Source: Hyunsoonleella aquatilis (GTDB lineage Bacteria > Bacteroidota > Bacteroidia > Flavobacteriales > Flavobacteriaceae). Taken from it: a stretch of DNA of 64,000 nucleotides. Both the position numbers and the translations under genes were made by a program. Where the stretch lies: positions 310,001 through 374,000 of the forward strand of contig NZ_JACNMF010000002.1 of the NCBI RefSeq assembly GCF_014270105.1, written 5' to 3'. This document shows, one piece after another, positions 3,786 through 23,323 of the stretch. Every line of letters begins with the position of its first letter. Position 1 is the first letter of the stretch. The notes under the pieces are model-generated. The model saw nothing but the letters and a program-made list of their open reading frames with translations, did no database searches and was not told the origin of the DNA.

Positions 3786-6452
3786 TTGAAGAAAGCTTTT
3801 AAGATTATCGGCATTACTCTTTTGATTATTGTTGCACTTTTGGTAGCCATTCCTTTTGCATTTCAAGGGCAAATCAAGGACATGGTGAAACGCTTCATCA
3901 ACCAAAACCTAAATGCCAAAGTAGAATTTAGCGATGTCAGTTTAAGTTTTATCAAAAGTTTTCCCCAAGCTCATATTGGCGTGAGTGATTTGGTCATCAC
4001 CAATTTTGAACCGTTTAAGGACGAAACCTTTGCCACGGCGAAGGATATTTCGTTTACGATGTCGGTCAAGGAATTGTTCAAAAAAGCTAGTGATGGCCCC
4101 ATAGTGGTGAATACTATCAACATCAATGAAGCATTGTTAACATTGAAAACGGACAAGTTCGGCAACAATAATTACGACATCACCAAGGAAAAAGAAAACC
4201 AAACTTCATCCGAAAGCGATGGTGGATTTGCCTTCGATATTGAGGACTATCAAATCAAAAAAAGTGCTTTCACCTATATTGATGAAAGTTCGGATATTTT
4301 GATCCACATAACCGAATTGAACCACGAAGGCCATGGTACCTTTTCTGCAGAAACCTCGGAATTAAATACAAAAAGCGAAGCCAACCTGAGCATCACTTTA
4401 GATAGCACGAATTACCTCACCAGCAACCCCATAAAATTGGATGCACTTATTGGTTTGGATTTGGAAAATGAAACTTACACTTTTAAGGAAAACAAAGGCT
4501 ACATTAACGAATTGCCCATTGAATTTGAAGGGTTTGTGCAACTAGTCGAAAACGGGCAACAAATTGATATTTCGTTTGAAAACCCAGAATCAGACTTTAA
4601 AAACTTTTTAGCCATCATTCCTAAAGAATATTCAAAGAACATTGAAGATGTGCAGACTACCGGAGATTTCAAAGTGAAAGGATTGATAAAAGGGTTGAGT
4701 TCTGAAGAAACCATACCGAATTTAGACATCAGCATCACCTCTAATAATGCGTCTTTTAAATATCCAGATTTGCCGAAACGGGTGAGTAATATTTCGATTG
4801 ATACCCGCATTAAAAACGAAACTGGAAAAACTGATGATACTTATATCGATATTAAAACATTAAATTTTAAAATTGATGAAGATGTTTTTAAGTCGTCAGC
4901 AACACTAAAAAACCTGACCAAAAATATGCTGGTGAATGCCAATATTGATGGTGTACTTAATTTGACAAACATCACAAAAGCGTACCCCGTGGAGTTGGAA
5001 AATGCCCTCACTGGTATTTTAAAAGGCAAACTGAATACGGCTTTTGACATGAATGCCATCGAAACCAATGCCTACGGACGTATCAAAAATAAAGGGAATG
5101 CAAGCATAACCGATTTTGTGTTTTCTTCTGAAGACATCGTTAATCCCATTCATATTTCACAAGCGGATATGACCTTTAATCCTGGCACCGTTAACCTAAA
5201 TAATTTCAAAGCGCAAACGGGTGATAGCGATTTGAATGCTACCGGCACCATCAATAATTTATTGGGGTTTTTGTTGAGTGACAATACTTTGAAAGGGAAT
5301 TTTAATGTGAATTCTAACCTGTTTAAAGTAGGTGATTTTATGACCGCAGACGAGGTCAATGCTGAAAGTAATAAAACAACAAGCGACACCGAATCCCTTA
5401 AAATCCCCGCATTCTTGGAATGTGTTATCAACGCCAATGTAAATACGGTGATATACGATAACTTAAATTTAAAAGACGTTACCGGAAAACTTTATATCAA
5501 AGACCAGCAAGTCGCCATTAAAGATATGTCCTCCAATATTTTTAGTGGCAAGTTGTTGGTAAATGGGGATGTTTCCACTAAAGAAGAAACGCCAGTGTTC
5601 CATCTCGATTTGGGCGCCAATGATTTTGATATTGCACAATCCTTTCAAGATTTGGAGTTGTTTCAAAATTTAGCCCCAATTGCTGAATTGTTTCAAGGCA
5701 AATTGAATACCACTTTAAATCTGTCTGGGAGTCTGGACCAGGAATTTTCACCCGTTTTGAATTCCGTATCCGGGAGTGCCATGGCGGAGTTGCTTACAAC
5801 GAAAATCAATACACAAGATGGGCTTTTAAGTCAATTAGAGGGCGCTTTGTCCTTTATCGATTTTGATAAATTGGATTTAAAAGACGTGAAAACCAAACTG
5901 GATTTTGCTGATGGAAAAGTGGCGGTTAAACCTTTTAAATTGAAATATCAGGATATTGATATTGATGTTTCGGGGACGCACGGTTTTGATAAAAGCATCG
6001 ATTACAACGCTGTATTTAATGTACCAGCAAAATATTTGGGTAGTGAAGTGAACAGGTTGATTGGCCAAATCAATGATTCCGAAGTCAAAAACATCACGAT
6101 TCCCGTTACGGCTAATATTACTGGGATGTTTACTAGCCCAAATGTAAAAACCGATTTGGCCAGCGGTATTAGAAACTTGACAAATCAGCTTATTGAAATT
6201 CAAAAGCAAAAATTGTTGAACCAAGGCAAGGACAAAGTGAAGGATTTAATTGGTGATGTTATCGGCGGGAATAAAACCAAAACCGATTCCATTAAAAAAC
6301 AGCAAAATAATACGGTAAATGATGTTTTAAAGGATATCATAAAAACCAAAACTCCTCAAGATTCTACAGTGAATTCGACCGAAAAAGTGATTAATAATGT
6401 ATTGGGAGGGCTTTTGGGCGTAAAGAAAAAACAAAAAGACACAATAAATTAG
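3786..6452 (+). CDS. AsmA family protein
   Basis: The protein is 888 aa with one N-terminal membrane helix (about residues 5-27) and then a very long beta-rich periplasmic domain. This is the layout of AsmA/TamB-like proteins, which act in lipid traffic and outer-membrane homeostasis. The segment QNLNAKVEFSDVSLSFIKSFP after the helix is typical of the AsmA N-terminus. The C-terminus (from about residue 800) is charged and Asn/Lys-rich. The start is TTG at 3786: there is no in-frame ATG upstream, and this codon is followed directly by KKAFK and the helix. It stands alone, about 90 bp after the transporter. Confidence 0.85.
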   Translation: MKKAFKIIGITLLIIVALLVAIPFAFQGQIKDMVKRFINQNLNAKVEFSDVSLSFIKSFPQAHIGVSDLVITNFEPFKDETFATAKDISFTMSVKELFKKASDGPIVVNTININEALLTLKTDKFGNNNYDITKEKENQTSSESDGGFAFDIEDYQIKKSAFTYIDESSDILIHITELNHEGHGTFSAETSELNTKSEANLSITLDSTNYLTSNPIKLDALIGLDLENETYTFKENKGYINELPIEFEGFVQLVENGQQIDISFENPESDFKNFLAIIPKEYSKNIEDVQTTGDFKVKGLIKGLSSEETIPNLDISITSNNASFKYPDLPKRVSNISIDTRIKNETGKTDDTYIDIKTLNFKIDEDVFKSSATLKNLTKNMLVNANIDGVLNLTNITKAYPVELENALTGILKGKLNTAFDMNAIETNAYGRIKNKGNASITDFVFSSEDIVNPIHISQADMTFNPGTVNLNNFKAQTGDSDLNATGTINNLLGFLLSDNTLKGNFNVNSNLFKVGDFMTADEVNAESNKTTSDTESLKIPAFLECVINANVNTVIYDNLNLKDVTGKLYIKDQQVAIKDMSSNIFSGKLLVNGDVSTKEETPVFHLDLGANDFDIAQSFQDLELFQNLAPIAELFQGKLNTTLNLSGSLDQEFSPVLNSVSGSAMAELLTTKINTQDGLLSQLEGALSFIDFDKLDLKDVKTKLDFADGKVAVKPFKLKYQDIDIDVSGTHGFDKSIDYNAVFNVPAKYLGSEVNRLIGQINDSEVKNITIPVTANITGMFTSPNVKTDLASGIRNLTNQLIEIQKQKLLNQGKDKVKDLIGDVIGGNKTKTDSIKKQQNNTVNDVLKDIIKTKTPQDSTVNSTEKVINNVLGGLLGVKKKQKDTIN

Positions 6453-7079: not shown

Positions 7080-7874
7080 CTAAAATATTGAAATCTCAAC
7101 AACCAACCCCTCATTAGCCCGCACATTAAACACCGTTTGGTCTTCAAAAATGAGATACTGCCCTTTTACGCCCACCAAAGTACCTTCGAAAGATTCTGCT
7201 TTTAAAATATTTAAGGATTTTGGCTTTTCGGGATATTGATGCACTGGAAACTCCAAATTAGTTTCCGAATTGCTTTCAATAAAATAGTCTTTCGCCTCCT
7301 CAGGAATATGCGATTTTAAACGCTCACGCCACTCCACCAAATTTTCATCTTTAATTTCATTTTTAAGCATGGTGCGCCAATTGGTTTTATCACTTACATG
7401 GTCTTTTAAGGCCACCTCGGTAATGCCTGCCAAATACCGATTGGGTACTTCCACAATTTCAATGGCCTCGTGCGCACCTTGGTCTATCCAACGGGTGGGC
7501 ACTTGACTTTTCCGCGTCACCCCAACTTTCACATTGCTGGAATTGGCCAAATACACAACGTGAGGCTGTAATTGCACTTGCTTTTCATATTCCAAATCGC
7601 GGTCTTCTTTTCCTAAATGGGCGGTGCTCAACTCGGGTCGCATAATCCATTCTCCTGCTTGAGCGGTTTCATAAAAGCATTGTTTGTCAAAACCTTGGCG
7701 ATAGATGGGTTTGTCCAATCCACAATTCAAACATTGGTACTTTACAAACTGCATTTTTATGCGTTTGTTAAGCAGTTGGTTGACATTAATAAAATCATCA
7801 TCAAACACCAAATAGTATTGAATTGGACTGGAAAATTCGGTTTCCATTTTCCGTAAAACACCCTGATAGGTCAT
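7080..7874 (-). CDS. DUF2797 domain-containing protein
   Basis: The protein is 264 aa. The N-terminal half has a zinc-ribbon-like CLNCG (residues 48-52) and a second Cys downstream (about 67). The centre has VKVGVTRKSQVPTRWIDQGA, the signature of DUF2797, which resembles GIY-YIG-type cores. The biochemical function of the family is not established. It diverges from the GH3-family gene with only about 43 bp between the starts, so the two promoters must be closely packed. Confidence 0.82.
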   Translation of the reverse strand: MTYQGVLRKMETEFSSPIQYYLVFDDDFINVNQLLNKRIKMQFVKYQCLNCGLDKPIYRQGFDKQCFYETAQAGEWIMRPELSTAHLGKEDRDLEYEKQVQLQPHVVYLANSSNVKVGVTRKSQVPTRWIDQGAHEAIEIVEVPNRYLAGITEVALKDHVSDKTNWRTMLKNEIKDENLVEWRERLKSHIPEEAKDYFIESNSETNLEFPVHQYPEKPKSLNILKAESFEGTLVGVKGQYLIFEDQTVFNVRANEGLVVEISIF

Positions 7875-9530: not shown

Positions 9531-9560
9531 TATTTAAGTTAATCCTTAAACCCTCGCTTT

Positions 9561-20867: not shown

Positions 20868-20875
20868 TAAATAAT
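20868..20875. repeat. 8-bp target site duplication, left copy (TAAATAAT)
   Basis: The same octamer follows the right end of the element at 23316-23323. Eight bp is the duplication length expected for IS1595-family insertions. Confidence 0.92.
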
Positions 20876-20898
20876 GGCAATGATATACTTGTGTAACC
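20876..20898 (+). repeat. left terminal inverted repeat of the IS1595 element
   Basis: The 23 bp begin GGCAATGATATACTTG and match the right end (23293-23315) perfectly in inverse orientation. Confidence 0.95.
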
Positions 20899-20933
20899 CC
20901 TGAACCCATAAGGAATGTATGATTTAGGGGAAT

Positions 20934-20948
20934 GTTAAATTTTTGTTA
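20934..20948 (+). repeat. left subterminal inverted repeat (GTTAAATTTTTGTTA)
   Basis: Its exact inverse lies at 23243-23257. Each copy begins 58 bp from its end of the element, so it is probably a second transposase-binding site. Confidence 0.75.
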
Positions 20949-20957
20949 TTTCAGTTC

Positions 20958-21170
20958 CTAAAACACTTTTTGTATGTGAAACTCTACCCCTTTAGAGTTT
21001 GTAAACATTATATAGTCCGTCTTTTGGAACTTTCGATAATGATATTGATAATTCCTTGTTTCTGGTTCAAAATCATTTAAAAGCTGAACAAAATCTTTAA
21101 GGTTCGTCTCGAACAGGACAACCTTGTTCCCGATTATGAGCGTATATAAGTTTCTAAGGTCTCTTAACAT
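20958..21170 (-). CDS. 70-aa hypothetical protein encoded in the IS element
   Basis: It encodes 70 aa, is rich in Asn/Phe/Tyr and has no signal peptide or known motif. It starts at ATG 21170, divergent from the transposase, and ends 10 bp from the left subterminal repeat. The gap to the transposase start carries five TGTAAAT repeats, which suggests joint regulation. It could be a transposition regulator or plain cargo; I recognise no family. Confidence 0.6.
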   Translation of the reverse strand: MLRDLRNLYTLIIGNKVVLFETNLKDFVQLLNDFEPETRNYQYHYRKFQKTDYIMFTNSKGVEFHIQKVF

Positions 21171-21172
21171 AG

Positions 21173-21244
21173 TGTAAATGTAAATAATTCCATAAATATT
21201 TACAAATATATTTGATTATGTAAATTAATCTGTGTATATTTACA
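21173..21244. promoter_or_regulatory. five TGTAAAT heptamers between divergent IS genes, candidate operator array
   Basis: Direct copies lie at 21173, 21179 and 21219 and inverted copies at 21198 and 21238, all within 72 bp that must hold the transposase and 70-aa ORF promoters. Confidence 0.5.
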
Positions 21245-21261
21245 TATCTAATTAACAGACC

Positions 21262-22212
21262 ATGTGCAACAAGACAAAAGACTTAAGGGATTTCGATAGC
21301 TTATATGAATTACTGGATTATTTCACCACGGATGAAATCTGTGAGGAATACTTAGCTGTTCTACGTTGGAACGGTGAGCCTACTTGCGCCTACTGCGAAA
21401 GCAACAAGGTCAAAGCTTTGAACGGAAAAACTAGGCGTTACAAGTGCTACGGGTGCAAAAAACAGTTCAGCGTTAAGGTGGGAACTATCTTCCATGACAG
21501 CAAGATATCCCTAAGAAAATGGTTTGTTGCCGTATATCTTGTTACCGCCCACAAGAAAGGGATTTCATCGCACCAATTAGCGAGAGACCTTAAGATTACC
21601 CAAAAAACGGCATGGTTCGTTCTGCAAAGGATTAGAGAAGTTTACAAGCCTGATAACGAGAAATTTACCAACGAAGTGGAGATTGACGAAAGTTGGATAG
21701 GCGGAAAGGAAAAAAACAAACACGCCAACAAGAAAACTAAGGCTTCGCAAGGTAGAAGTACTAAGACCAAGACCCCAGTTTTGGGCATATTGGAAAGAAA
21801 CGGCAAGGTTTACGCTATTCCCGTTAAGGACACGAGAACACCAACGCTAGTGCCTATTATGGTAAATAAAGTTGAGGAAGGCTCTAAAATATATACCGAC
21901 GAATACAGGGCTTATAAGTTTTTGGGGAACTTCTACGAGCATAGTTTCGTTAGGCATTCCGCCTCGCAATACGTTGACGGCGTTGTACATACCAACAGTA
22001 TCGAAAACTTTTGGTCTCACCTTAAAAGAGGTATTGACGGTATATATCACCATGTTTCCAAAAAACATTTGGATAAGTACATCAATGAATATACCTTTAG
22101 GTTCAATAACAGAAATCTAAGCGAGGGTTCTAAGTTCGATGTGGCTATTGCCAACGGCGTGAACAAGCGTTTGGACTATAAAACTTTGATAGGTGAGCAA
22201 AACAAAGAATGA
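21262..22212 (+). CDS. IS1595 family (ISXO2-like) transposase
   Basis: The 316-aa protein has an N-terminal zinc ribbon (Cys42, Cys45, Cys62, Cys65), then a helix-turn-helix (SSHQLARDLKITQKTAWFVL, about 102-121). The DDE_Tnp_IS1595 domain starts at EIDESWIGGK (Asp142), continues with YTDEYRAY (Asp213), and ends with HTNSIENFWSHLKRG, where Glu248 is the likely third catalytic acid. It is full-length with no internal stop, consistent with an active transposase acting on the 23-bp ends. Confidence 0.96.
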   Translation: MCNKTKDLRDFDSLYELLDYFTTDEICEEYLAVLRWNGEPTCAYCESNKVKALNGKTRRYKCYGCKKQFSVKVGTIFHDSKISLRKWFVAVYLVTAHKKGISSHQLARDLKITQKTAWFVLQRIREVYKPDNEKFTNEVEIDESWIGGKEKNKHANKKTKASQGRSTKTKTPVLGILERNGKVYAIPVKDTRTPTLVPIMVNKVEEGSKIYTDEYRAYKFLGNFYEHSFVRHSASQYVDGVVHTNSIENFWSHLKRGIDGIYHHVSKKHLDKYINEYTFRFNNRNLSEGSKFDVAIANGVNKRLDYKTLIGEQNKE

Positions 22213-22321
22213 CGAGATAGAACGTCCAAAAAAAGATGTAAAAATAGATAAGAGGAAGCCCAAATTTAAAGAGGTATTGGGTGCTATCGTAAACAAAAAA
22301 CCTCCTGAGCCAAAAAAATAA
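22193..22321 (+). CDS. 42-aa Lys-rich protein overlapping the transposase end
   Basis: This is a short reading frame in a different phase from the transposase. It starts at GTG 22193, overlaps the last 20 bp of the transposase gene and ends at TAA 22321. The product is highly basic and Pro-rich, with VLGAIVNKKPPEPKK at the C-terminus. The overlap suggests translational coupling. A hairpin terminator follows 18 bp later, so this frame fills the space between transposase and terminator. No database check was possible. Confidence 0.5.
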   Translation: MSKTKNDEIERPKKDVKIDKRKPKFKEVLGAIVNKKPPEPKK

Positions 22322-22339
22322 TCTATATTTGTAAATGAA

Positions 22340-22372
22340 AAAAGGGAGCGACCGCTAAATCAACTCCCTTTT
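22340..22372. terminator. hairpin terminator after the transposase unit
   Basis: AAAAGGGAG (22340-22348) pairs with CTCCCTTTT (22364-22372). A/T-rich arms make it usable on both strands; it separates the transposase unit from the tRNA/passenger unit. Confidence 0.7.
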
Positions 22373-22466
22373 CCGACATTAAGTTAAAAGCCCTATCCTA
22401 ATGAGAGACGGCACACTTTTAACCGCTTGTCTGATACTTCCAAATGATGGAAGCCTTATATTTTAG

Positions 22467-22540
22467 AACCCTCGGCAAGAATCGAACTTGCAACCTACGG
22501 TTTCGGACACCATTGCTCTATCCATTTGAGCTACGAGGGG
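22467..22540 (-). tRNA. tRNA-Arg (anticodon CCG) inside the IS element
   Basis: Read on the minus strand, the 74 nt fold into a full cloverleaf. The acceptor stem has six of seven pairs (a C1-U72 mismatch). The D arm is GCTC/GAGC with GG in the loop. The anticodon stem ATGGT/ACCGT carries one G-U pair and the loop GTCCGAA gives anticodon CCG (codon CGG). The variable loop is five nt. The T arm is GCAAG/CTTGC with loop TTCGATT. No CCA is encoded, as is usual in Bacteroidota. G32 and the C1-U72 mismatch are atypical, so function is likely but not certain. It lies downstream of the 148-aa passenger gene on the same strand. Confidence 0.88.
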
Positions 22541-22542
22541 AT

Positions 22543-22564
22543 TAGGACTGCTGGCACAGTCCTA
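22543..22564. terminator. hairpin between passenger gene and tRNA
   Basis: A perfect 8-bp stem TAGGACTG/CAGTCCTA (22543-22550, 22557-22564) with a 6-nt loop overlaps the passenger stop codon. A T-run follows on the plus strand. It may stop antisense transcription into the passenger gene or form a processing site before the tRNA. Confidence 0.55.
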
Positions 22565-23008
22565 TTTTTTTGCCATATAAACTGCTTTTTTGCTCCCTTC
22601 TGGGTAATCTCTGTCAATTATACCTTCACTATACAATAAGGACAGATTAGACCTTGCCTTTTTGTACGCATAATCCTTGTTCATATTTTCCAATTTTGCC
22701 AATATTGCCCCAACATCATACGAAAGGGCTGTACCTAGATGATTTAAAATACGTTCCACTTTCTTTTTATAGGTATCGTTGCTTTTGTACCCTTCAATAA
22801 CAGGCGCATCCTCTTTATCAAAATCAATTTCTATATCCTTAGGCTTGTTTTTGATTTCAGTAGGTTTCTCAGTTTTCTTTTTTTCCTCCTTAATTTTTCC
22901 AGTACCCGAGGGCTTGTAGTACTCCTTAAGGTTTTGAATGTTTTTCAGGGCTTTAAGCAGTTCTTCCTCTTGCTTTAGCAATTCGTGATAAAAAGATTCT
23001 TTTCCCAT
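22562..23008 (-). CDS. 148-aa IS passenger protein, winged-helix-like C-terminus
   Basis: The N-terminus is a helical Glu/Lys-rich coiled coil (about residues 1-30). A long charged Lys/Glu/Pro linker follows, then a C-terminal domain (about 80-148) with SYDVGAILAKLENM, KKARSNLSLLYSEGIIDRDYPEGSKKAVY. This pattern of helices followed by a beta-wing resembles winged helix DNA-binding domains. I chose ATG 23008 (MGKESFYHELL); a longer frame upstream starts with a non-ATG codon and adds a poorly conserved-looking hydrophobic stretch. It shares strand and probably transcript with the tRNA. Function unknown; a regulator of the element is one possibility. Confidence 0.65.
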   Translation of the reverse strand: MGKESFYHELLKQEEELLKALKNIQNLKEYYKPSGTGKIKEEKKKTEKPTEIKNKPKDIEIDFDKEDAPVIEGYKSNDTYKKKVERILNHLGTALSYDVGAILAKLENMNKDYAYKKARSNLSLLYSEGIIDRDYPEGSKKAVYMAKK

Positions 23009-23078
23009 AATTATAAATTTTTGTATATTTGAATAAATAAAAAGCTTGTTCGGCAACACCGAATATGTTTTTCGAAAA

Positions 23079-23114
23079 AAGCGGAAGTTTTAGTTTGACG
23101 GCTAACTTCCGCTT
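23079..23114. terminator. 11-bp hairpin near the right end of the IS element
   Basis: AAGCGGAAGTT (23079-23089) pairs perfectly with AACTTCCGCTT (23104-23114). On the minus strand a T6 run follows, so it would block transcripts entering the passenger gene from the TetR side. Confidence 0.6.
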
Positions 23115-23242
23115 AATTTTTGTAAATATAGACAAAAAAAACACAATAGGCGGAAATAGGCGGAAAAACTTTTCAACAGGTTTTTTGTCGATTATTTTTT
23201 ATGATATTGTGTTTTTTTCAAAGAAGTGAGAAGAAAATATAT

Positions 23243-23257
23243 TAACAAAAATTTAAC
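23243..23257 (-). repeat. right subterminal inverted repeat
   Basis: Exact inverse of the 15-bp repeat at 20934-20948, again 58 bp inside the element end. Confidence 0.75.
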
Positions 23258-23292
23258 CTGCCCGTCAATCCCTTGATATTTCTGGAATATTA

Positions 23293-23315
23293 GGTTACAC
23301 AAGTATATCATTGCC
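23293..23315 (-). repeat. right terminal inverted repeat of the IS1595 element
   Basis: A perfect 23-bp inverse match to 20876-20898. Confidence 0.95.
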
Positions 23316-23323
23316 TAAATAAT
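23316..23323. repeat. 8-bp target site duplication, right copy (TAAATAAT)
   Basis: Identical to 20868-20875. Confidence 0.92.

Follow-up and report, generated by a model that had tools for sequence, protein, structure and literature searches.

A tRNA-Arg(CCG) gene and its neighbour ORF147 as a candidate mobile RNA-protein module on an IS1595-family element of Hyunsoonleella aquatilis

Mobile DNA is known both to land in transfer RNA (tRNA) genes and to carry them in bulk. Siguier 2009 is cited in connection with IS1595 elements with passengers, and Alamos 2018 in connection with tRNA genes on mobile DNA. The available excerpt of one account presents the named transporter insertion sequences (tIS) as mobilizable elements, among them tISCpe8, a lincomycin resistance element (PMC5704250), and the excerpts of two further sources describe tRNA genes on mobile DNA chiefly as arrays (PMC12803027, PMC5966550). 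The present analysis concerns a stretch of 64,000 nucleotides (nt) of Hyunsoonleella aquatilis (contig NZ_JACNMF010000002.1, positions 310,001 to 374,000), referred to as a whole as the window, in which an IS1595-family element carries a tRNA-Arg(CCG) gene beside a small open reading frame (ORF), ORF147. The overall explanation put forward here, in which we place modest confidence, is that this tRNA and ORF147 together form a mobile module of two genes; that a mobile RNA-protein module of this type exists appears very probable from the sequence comparisons.

The principal evidence is the constancy with which members of the ORF147 protein family are found next to a structured RNA. In the window, ORF147 (148 codons plus a stop; 22562-23008, minus strand), the protein half of the proposed module, stops 21 nt ahead of the tRNA gene (22467-22540, minus strand), its RNA half; a preliminary description of the locus, which had reported the tRNA, missed this linked protein gene. 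A relative, ORF136, lies in locus L072 (Psychroserpens sp. SPM9; 31% identity, E 1e-11), where it starts 37 nt after a tRNA gene, and the member in L218 was found by tblastn (E 1.5e-13). A three-member profile, run over 7,664 reading frames from a survey set of 77 transposase-matching loci, that of the window among them, recovered L219 (E 3.9e-5), L238 (9.7e-4), and L216 (0.2), and a six-member profile added L166 (E 1.9e-8). In 397 genomes of the host's family, a seven-member profile gave six matches with E <1e-20, five of them known and one new (L247, in genome G234), the protein of which (E 9.4e-24) has a tRNA of 63.7 bits 37 nt upstream. An eight-member profile, applied to 50 genomes from a second family within the order, returned the known member in G430 and a weak new one in G329 (L286, E 3.7e-6), with an RNA 60 nt upstream that scores 31.8 bits (E 1.1e-8) under a purpose-built tRNA model.

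All nine modules (the window, L072, L218, L216, L238, L219, L166, L247, and L286) have an RNA resembling a tRNA or a transfer-messenger RNA (tmRNA) within 70 nt of the family member and on the same strand. The window and L072 were first noticed through their tRNAs rather than through the protein, and the two cases found first by protein profile, with the RNA checked after (L247 and L286), both have the RNA (2/2). A single-protein search with ORF136 in 395 genomes of the order found only the host; given that the later profile search found more members, single-sequence searches appear to be insensitive here. The protein itself falls in no accepted family in the collections consulted. No Pfam family was above the cut-off in the seven members scanned (all except L247 and L286), PADLOC at E 0.01 recognised none of five (again with L247 and L286 outside the set), and NCBIfam gave nothing above the cut-off for three. 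ORF147 of the window reached a best E of 0.1 in PHROGs, nothing better than E 0.053 in a profile search of the PDB, and no match in a plasmid collection, and there was no match for ORF136 in a phage collection, or for a two-member profile of the family in viral contigs.

To judge from these sequence contexts, the pair is a unit that travels together, as would be expected of a toxin-antitoxin pair, being found both as IS1595 cargo and, in L247, as an integron cassette. The module lies inside a delimited IS1595 element in the window, L072, and L166. In L216, L218, and L238, where the element ends are not fixed, an IS1595 transposase or a fragment of one is found no more than about 0.6 kb away; there are in-frame stops in the transposase of L218, and istA/istB-like genes split that of L238. 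In L219, the module is found 0.55 kb outside a delimited IS1595 element, and no mobile gene was recognised within 3.2 kb in L286. The module of L247 is located in a chromosomal integron, between two attC-like repeats. The integrase (5339-6406; 212.7 bits with the NCBIfam XerA/integron-integrase model, just below the cut-off of 220) is followed by short genes parted by repeats of up to 155 nt, which are read as attC from their form alone. Between the repeats starting at 9558 and 10369, ORF138 is the sole ORF of at least 60 amino acids (aa) that lies wholly, or nearly so, outside the repeats, and the tRNA is the only other gene found in the interval.

The same contexts bear on the possibility of chance capture, in which cargo-swapping elements picked up separate tRNA genes or their remnants, and the pairing is meaningless. 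Some of the survey would suit such a process, given that no tRNA-like gene was found in 26 of the 31 delimited elements, and that the tRNA of L217, which is 74% identical to the host tRNA-Cys, could be a simple capture. The linkage to one rare protein family (9/9, or 8/8 without L216), the positive outcome of both tests made after the prediction, and the presence of the pair alone as an integron cassette nevertheless make this explanation very improbable, and it can be considered largely disfavoured already.

The RNA comparisons show that the predicted acceptor stem and T-arm are conserved, with the anticodon and the D-arm free to vary. In the RNAs of the nine modules and of two further elements (L217 and L221), the T-stem is fully paired (5/5) and the acceptor stem has six or seven of its seven pairs in all 11 cases, and this pairing is kept across nine distinct sequences of the acceptor strand and as many of the T stem. 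Only 85 of 2,000,000 random placements in the window matched a stricter geometry (acceptor pairs 2-7 plus a full T-stem), from which L218 and L247 themselves depart by one inner mismatch each. Among these RNAs, ARAGORN reads the anticodons CCG, TGC, GAA, and GAT, and the RNAs of L218 and L216 are, respectively, a weak tRNA (37.2 bits) and a tRNA-like gene (35 bits). The RNAs of L166, L238, and L219 are 67-69 nt long, align with the Rfam tmRNA model at both of its ends, and retain the G3-U70 pair, with scores of 37.8, 28.4, and 26 bits (E 1.3e-11, 1.3e-7, and 1.4e-6) against a gathering score of 47. In L166 and L238, 26-28 nt replace the 324-326 model positions between the matched ends, so that the mRNA-like part is missing, as it is in L219.

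No D-arm is recognisable in the tmRNA-like RNAs or in L286, and the tmRNA-like RNAs also lack an anticodon arm of the normal kind. Four of the nine modules have U as base 73, as do L217 and L221, two have C, and the three tmRNA-like RNAs have A; in the host, U73 is found in five of the 26 tRNAs listed (two Gly, two Thr, and Cys). Folding is better than that of shuffled sequences in the window (z -2.2), L072 (-3.6), and L219 (-2.1), which is supportive. The training set of the purpose-built tRNA model was 26 tRNAs, five of them element RNAs (window, L072, L217, L218, and L221), and only L216, L238, L166, L219, L247, and L286 are thus outside it. Given that part of the tRNA shape is kept and the codon-reading part is not, the RNA may serve a purpose apart from ordinary translation.

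In eight of the nine modules, the RNA precedes the ORF by 35-68 nt, and in these RNA-first modules a TAnnTTTG or TAnnTTTA box, which we take to be the Bacteroidetes -7 promoter element, is found 64-102 nt ahead of the RNA, from which a hairpin separates it. In the window, a promoter-like box, TATATTTA (23123-23130), and a hairpin (23079-23114) lie 5' of ORF147, with a presumed role there (together 23079-23130, minus strand), and a scripted scan picked out a second putative box, TATATTTG, followed by a hairpin at 22340-22372 (together 22324-22372, plus strand). A third hairpin, read directly from the sequence, stands between ORF147 and the tRNA (22544-22563); with the T-run behind it, it is terminator-like on the plus strand. 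Boxes with long-loop hairpins, often near A- and T-runs, include both of the window stretches and also occur 5' of the RNAs in L072, L166, L216, L218, L219, L221, L238, L247, and L286, with several loops similar by eye, and the stretch may represent a small RNA or an attenuator. The layout is only suggestive, given that a stricter scan for box plus hairpin picked out 42 sites over 577 kb, of which just four belong to modules, and that the strongest stem within 150 nt was not the described hairpin in four of ten stretches.

The position of the RNA behind box and hairpin, ahead of the ORF, is what would be expected of a cis-acting leader, in which a tRNA-like fold cut or bound by tRNA enzymes sets the expression of the small protein, with no separate RNA. 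Such a leader is an unlikely explanation, given that the RNA of the window is downstream of ORF147, and that L217 and L221 have tRNAs with no ORF147 relative.

A number of observations weigh against the proposal of a two-gene module. The L216 protein is weak (E 0.2) and was accepted partly for its RNA, so that the fair count is 8/8 without it and 9/9 with it. Four frames that were not accepted (L215, L220, L222, and L226; E 0.28-0.96) have no adjacent RNA, and neither do the marginal matches in G212 (E 2.5e-5) and G719 (9.5e-5), also not accepted, which sit in open frames of 369 and 362 aa and would, if counted as members, reduce the linkage to 9/11. The delimited elements of L217 and L221 hold a tRNA without an ORF147 relative, and the gene order of the window is reversed (box, hairpin, ORF147, tRNA). 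In the RNA half, ARAGORN calls a tRNA in four of the nine modules, the remainder depending on covariance models, and the RNA of L286 was recovered neither by Rfam at E up to 1 nor by ARAGORN. The fold is weakly supported in L247 (z -1.75), L238 (-1.6), and L166 (-1.1), and no better than shuffles in L216 (z 0.02). The AlphaFold2 model of ORF147 is poor (pLDDT 48.8), with a long N-terminal helix, and, because of this, a DNA- or RNA-binding role for the protein would be a guess.

The tRNA gene of the window has, taken by itself, a complete cloverleaf. The 74-nt minus-strand cloverleaf with the anticodon CCG, as first described, is agreed on by ARAGORN (tRNA-Arg(ccg), 22466-22540, minus strand), by the Rfam tRNA model (53.3 bits at 22467-22540, against a cut-off of 29), and by folding, in which it is the minimum-energy structure (-23.5 kcal/mol, z -2.2, with 5/200 shuffles equally good). 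The acceptor end is odd, with the C1-U72 mismatch that had been pointed out together with G32, both of which are present, and with U73. G1-C72 and A73 are found in all four Arg tRNAs of the host, and the supposed divergence of the element tRNA from those of the host is borne out. The molecule thus has the cloverleaf of an elongator tRNA-Arg, above the model cut-off, without the paired 1-72 or the Arg-type base 73 of the host.

In the host genome (3.93 Mb, 99.99% complete), a tRNA-model search that scored 150 of 328 first-look candidates gave 37 matches, all of which were read; CCG was found solely in the element, and the search for a second tRNA-Arg(CCG), proposed in the preliminary description, found none among them. 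The other Arg genes are TCT, CCT, TCG, and ACG. Among the 47 tRNA matches of the congener G008, Arg TCT, TCG, and ACG were seen, and CCG was not seen among those read. With the element tRNA as query, matches at E up to 1e-6 were obtained in 37 of 249 genomes of the family, the host included, and the 30 matching loci that were read comprise 28 tRNA-Arg(CCT), one Trp, and the window itself. A phage origin was considered and set aside; 16 phage records match, and the 15 listed are 79-83% identical over 46-60% of the query.

Some other tRNA genes were observed in passing. One host match at 32.7 bits was read as a decayed tRNA-Ala copy; the decayed copy, of tRNA-Ala(GGC), lies about 2.3 kb from the intact host gene (L250 2041-2113, minus strand; G000:C12:644540-644612). 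In G008, 11 tRNA genes are packed into about 1 kb (L284 2164-3160; G008:C45), with two weak matches behind them and a Flavo-1 RNA nearby, an array that probably sits on a mobile element.

The simplest function for such a gene would be accessory decoding, as an extra reader of CGG for the element or the host. The complete cloverleaf, the lack of CCG elsewhere in the host, and the use of CGG in 57 of the 17,732 codons of the window are consistent with this role. However, none of the 534 codons of the element's three ORFs is CGG (24 are Arg codons), and the suggestion that the tRNA aids the translation of the element's own genes is rejected because of these counts. The C1-U72 mismatch and U73 also set the RNA apart from the four host Arg tRNAs, and other modules have other anticodons or no normal anticodon arm. 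The further suggestion, that it replaces a lost host tRNA, is not supported, given that four other Arg tRNAs remain in the host, TCG among them, and that all 11 congeners lack the element at this site. A tRNA-Arg(TCG) is expected to read CGG too, by wobble. Decoding is, from these comparisons, an unlikely purpose for the element tRNA, and quite improbable as an account of the locus.

The carrier is a mobile element, with the transposase, the ends, the 8-bp duplication, and the empty sites of an IS1595-family member. It is complete (20876-23315, 2,440 bp), and the description of it as intact was correct: the terminal inverted repeats (left, 20876-20898, plus strand; right, 23293-23315, minus strand) are complementary at 23/23 positions, and the copies of the target duplication, TAAATAAT, are 8/8 identical (left, 20868-20875; right, 23316-23323). 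The transposase (316 aa; 21262-22212, plus strand) is above the family cut-offs, with 150 bits for Pfam PF12762 (cut-off 27) and 210.4 bits for NCBIfam NF033547 (cut-off 75), and PF12760 is likewise above its cut-off. The tRNA gene lies well within the bounds of the element, and is true cargo. A small accessory ORF, ORF70 (20958-21170, minus strand), is divergent from the transposase, and has relatives in L072 (51%) and L064 (32%). Accessory ORFs beside the transposase, often divergent, recur in related IS1595 elements in two sequence types, that of ORF70 (also L072 3680-3892 and L064 5050-5292) and a second with a TYKEQ-like start (L166 6020-6229, L035 2488-2721, L216 4696-4989, and L238 2807-3028).

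The host genome has one full-length match to the element, two further matches being its own ends aligned to each other. In all 11 congeners searched, the right-hand neighbour gene (TetR-like by eye) is present and the insertion flanks are adjacent, with 27-105 nt between the matched parts, and no tRNA was found at any of these empty sites (0/11), either with ARAGORN or with the tRNA model run unfiltered to E 0.5. The element and the tRNA therefore arrived together, after the split from these congeners. The preliminary description would have abandoned the idea of cargo if related elements lacked the tRNA and the empty sites already held it; the first part was found, in 26 of 31 delimited relatives (presence being a lower bound), and the second was not.

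Elements were delimited by a repeat of at least 13/16 and a duplication of 8/8, and both ends were fixed in 31 of the 77 survey loci, with spans of 1,930 to 5,760 bp. At least five of these 31 (the window, L072, L166, L217, and L221) hold a tRNA- or tmRNA-like gene, which is a lower bound because the default-filter search missed the RNA of L219. The count used 13 of 17 search matches and excluded four weaker ones (E 0.01-3.5), one of which, L167 (E 3.5), lies within a delimited element. Cargo is exchanged between elements, given that L064, L065, and L162 have the same or nearly the same ends and different cargo genes, and in a transposase tree (40 rows, 32 of them unlabelled) the carriers that could be placed (the window, L166, L072, and L216) are found among non-carriers, in more than one well-supported group.

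Other cargo of these elements deserves mention. In L217 (9090-9378, minus strand), a tRNA of the Cys type (74% to the host tRNA-Cys), with its anticodon read as TGC, follows by 48 nt a 55-aa ORF that is ribbon-helix-helix-like (Pfam, below the cut-off), in a delimited IS1595 element. The L221 tRNA (7230-7304, minus strand), also inside an IS1595 element, has an 8-nt anticodon loop, like that of a frameshift suppressor, and an ORF of that element resembles IrrE/ImmA-type peptidases, with a Pfam score of 16.6 bits that falls short of the cut-off (22). In L236 (4315-4461, plus strand), two weak tandem tRNA-like stretches lie near a partial IS1595 transposase; they match the Y RNA-like YrlA at 27.6 bits, which is short of the threshold of 69. 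L072 (985-6690) and L219 (4950-12156) are flanked by the same two ORFs, one SSB-like and the other DUF-like with a CxxC motif (names by eye), and carry different mobile cargo; the site is likely to be an insertion hot spot.

The proposed module would work as a tRNA-shaped RNA and an ORF147-family protein, adjacent on one strand and probably cotranscribed, that are carried as cargo by IS1595 elements and, once, as an integron cassette. The RNA would act as a tRNA mimic rather than by decoding, and would be handled by the tRNA enzymes of the host (RNase P, CCA addition, a synthetase, and EF-Tu or SmpB), and the protein would be its partner or regulator, binding the RNA or its promoter. In its full form, which we advance tentatively, the proposal is of a new mobile RNA-protein system in which an RNA with the acceptor and T-arm of a tRNA or tmRNA is active in jamming, sensing, or sparing translation, under the control of the small protein, the pair being traded by transposons and integrons with the anticodon end left free.

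Integrons and transposons typically carry toxin-antitoxin or defence pairs, and it is by analogy with such cargo, and from a PADLOC HEC-09 match (161 bits) in L072, that the pair may be thought to benefit its carrier in a similar way; a toxin- or defence-like mechanism is, on this analogy, conceivable and rather doubtful. The HEC-09 match is to the second cargo gene of that element, which encodes a NYN-domain protein (5195-5857, plus strand).

The RNA might, alternatively, be a decoy or spare tRNA that protects the carrier or the host from tRNA-cutting nucleases, with ORF147 as its regulator. Anticodons that change within a constant overall shape, carriers of the kind typical for defence genes, the HEC-09 match in the same element, and the description of tRNA arrays as a putative antidefence system in the excerpt of PMC12803027 would all be consistent with a decoy. 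The tmRNA-like members, which have no normal anticodon arm, argue against it, and we consider it improbable. If the two-gene module is as proposed, one tRNA-shaped RNA and one protein family on two unrelated carriers would suggest a trade among bacteria in RNA devices that connect to the tRNA machinery. Some of the module RNAs would be annotated as ordinary tRNA genes and the others missed, as with ARAGORN (4/9).

Among the open-access matches listed, by title and the start of the abstract, neither a tRNA as IS1595 cargo or integron cassette nor this RNA-protein pair was found. Type III toxin-antitoxin systems share with eight of the modules the sequence of box, hairpin, structured RNA, and protein gene, together with mobile carriage, and differ in that no RNA repeat array was seen here, and no toxin family by Pfam or PADLOC in the members scanned. 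The tRNA-like domain of tmRNA is resembled by L166, L238, and L219, which match both ends of the model and keep G3-U70, whereas the mRNA-like part is missing in L166 and L238, and the scores (26-37.8 bits) do not reach the gathering cut-off of 47.

As a carrier, the IS1595 element with its passengers is ordinary, of a known kind. In the excerpt of PMC5704250, the tIS elements tISCpe8 and MTnSag1/tISSag10 have, as here, an IS1595 transposase, inverted repeats, an 8-bp duplication, and passengers, which in the window include, unlike those of the named tIS, a tRNA gene together with an ORF that falls in no accepted family. The tRNA arrays of phages, plasmids, and integrative elements, as presented in the excerpts of PMC12803027 and PMC5966550, likewise place tRNA genes on mobile DNA, whereas here a single RNA, partly without a normal anticodon arm, is joined by a protein gene of its own, on elements a few kilobases long. 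On these comparisons of sequence, the pair is rated as a new kind, an undescribed mobile RNA-protein module represented by a sample of nine.
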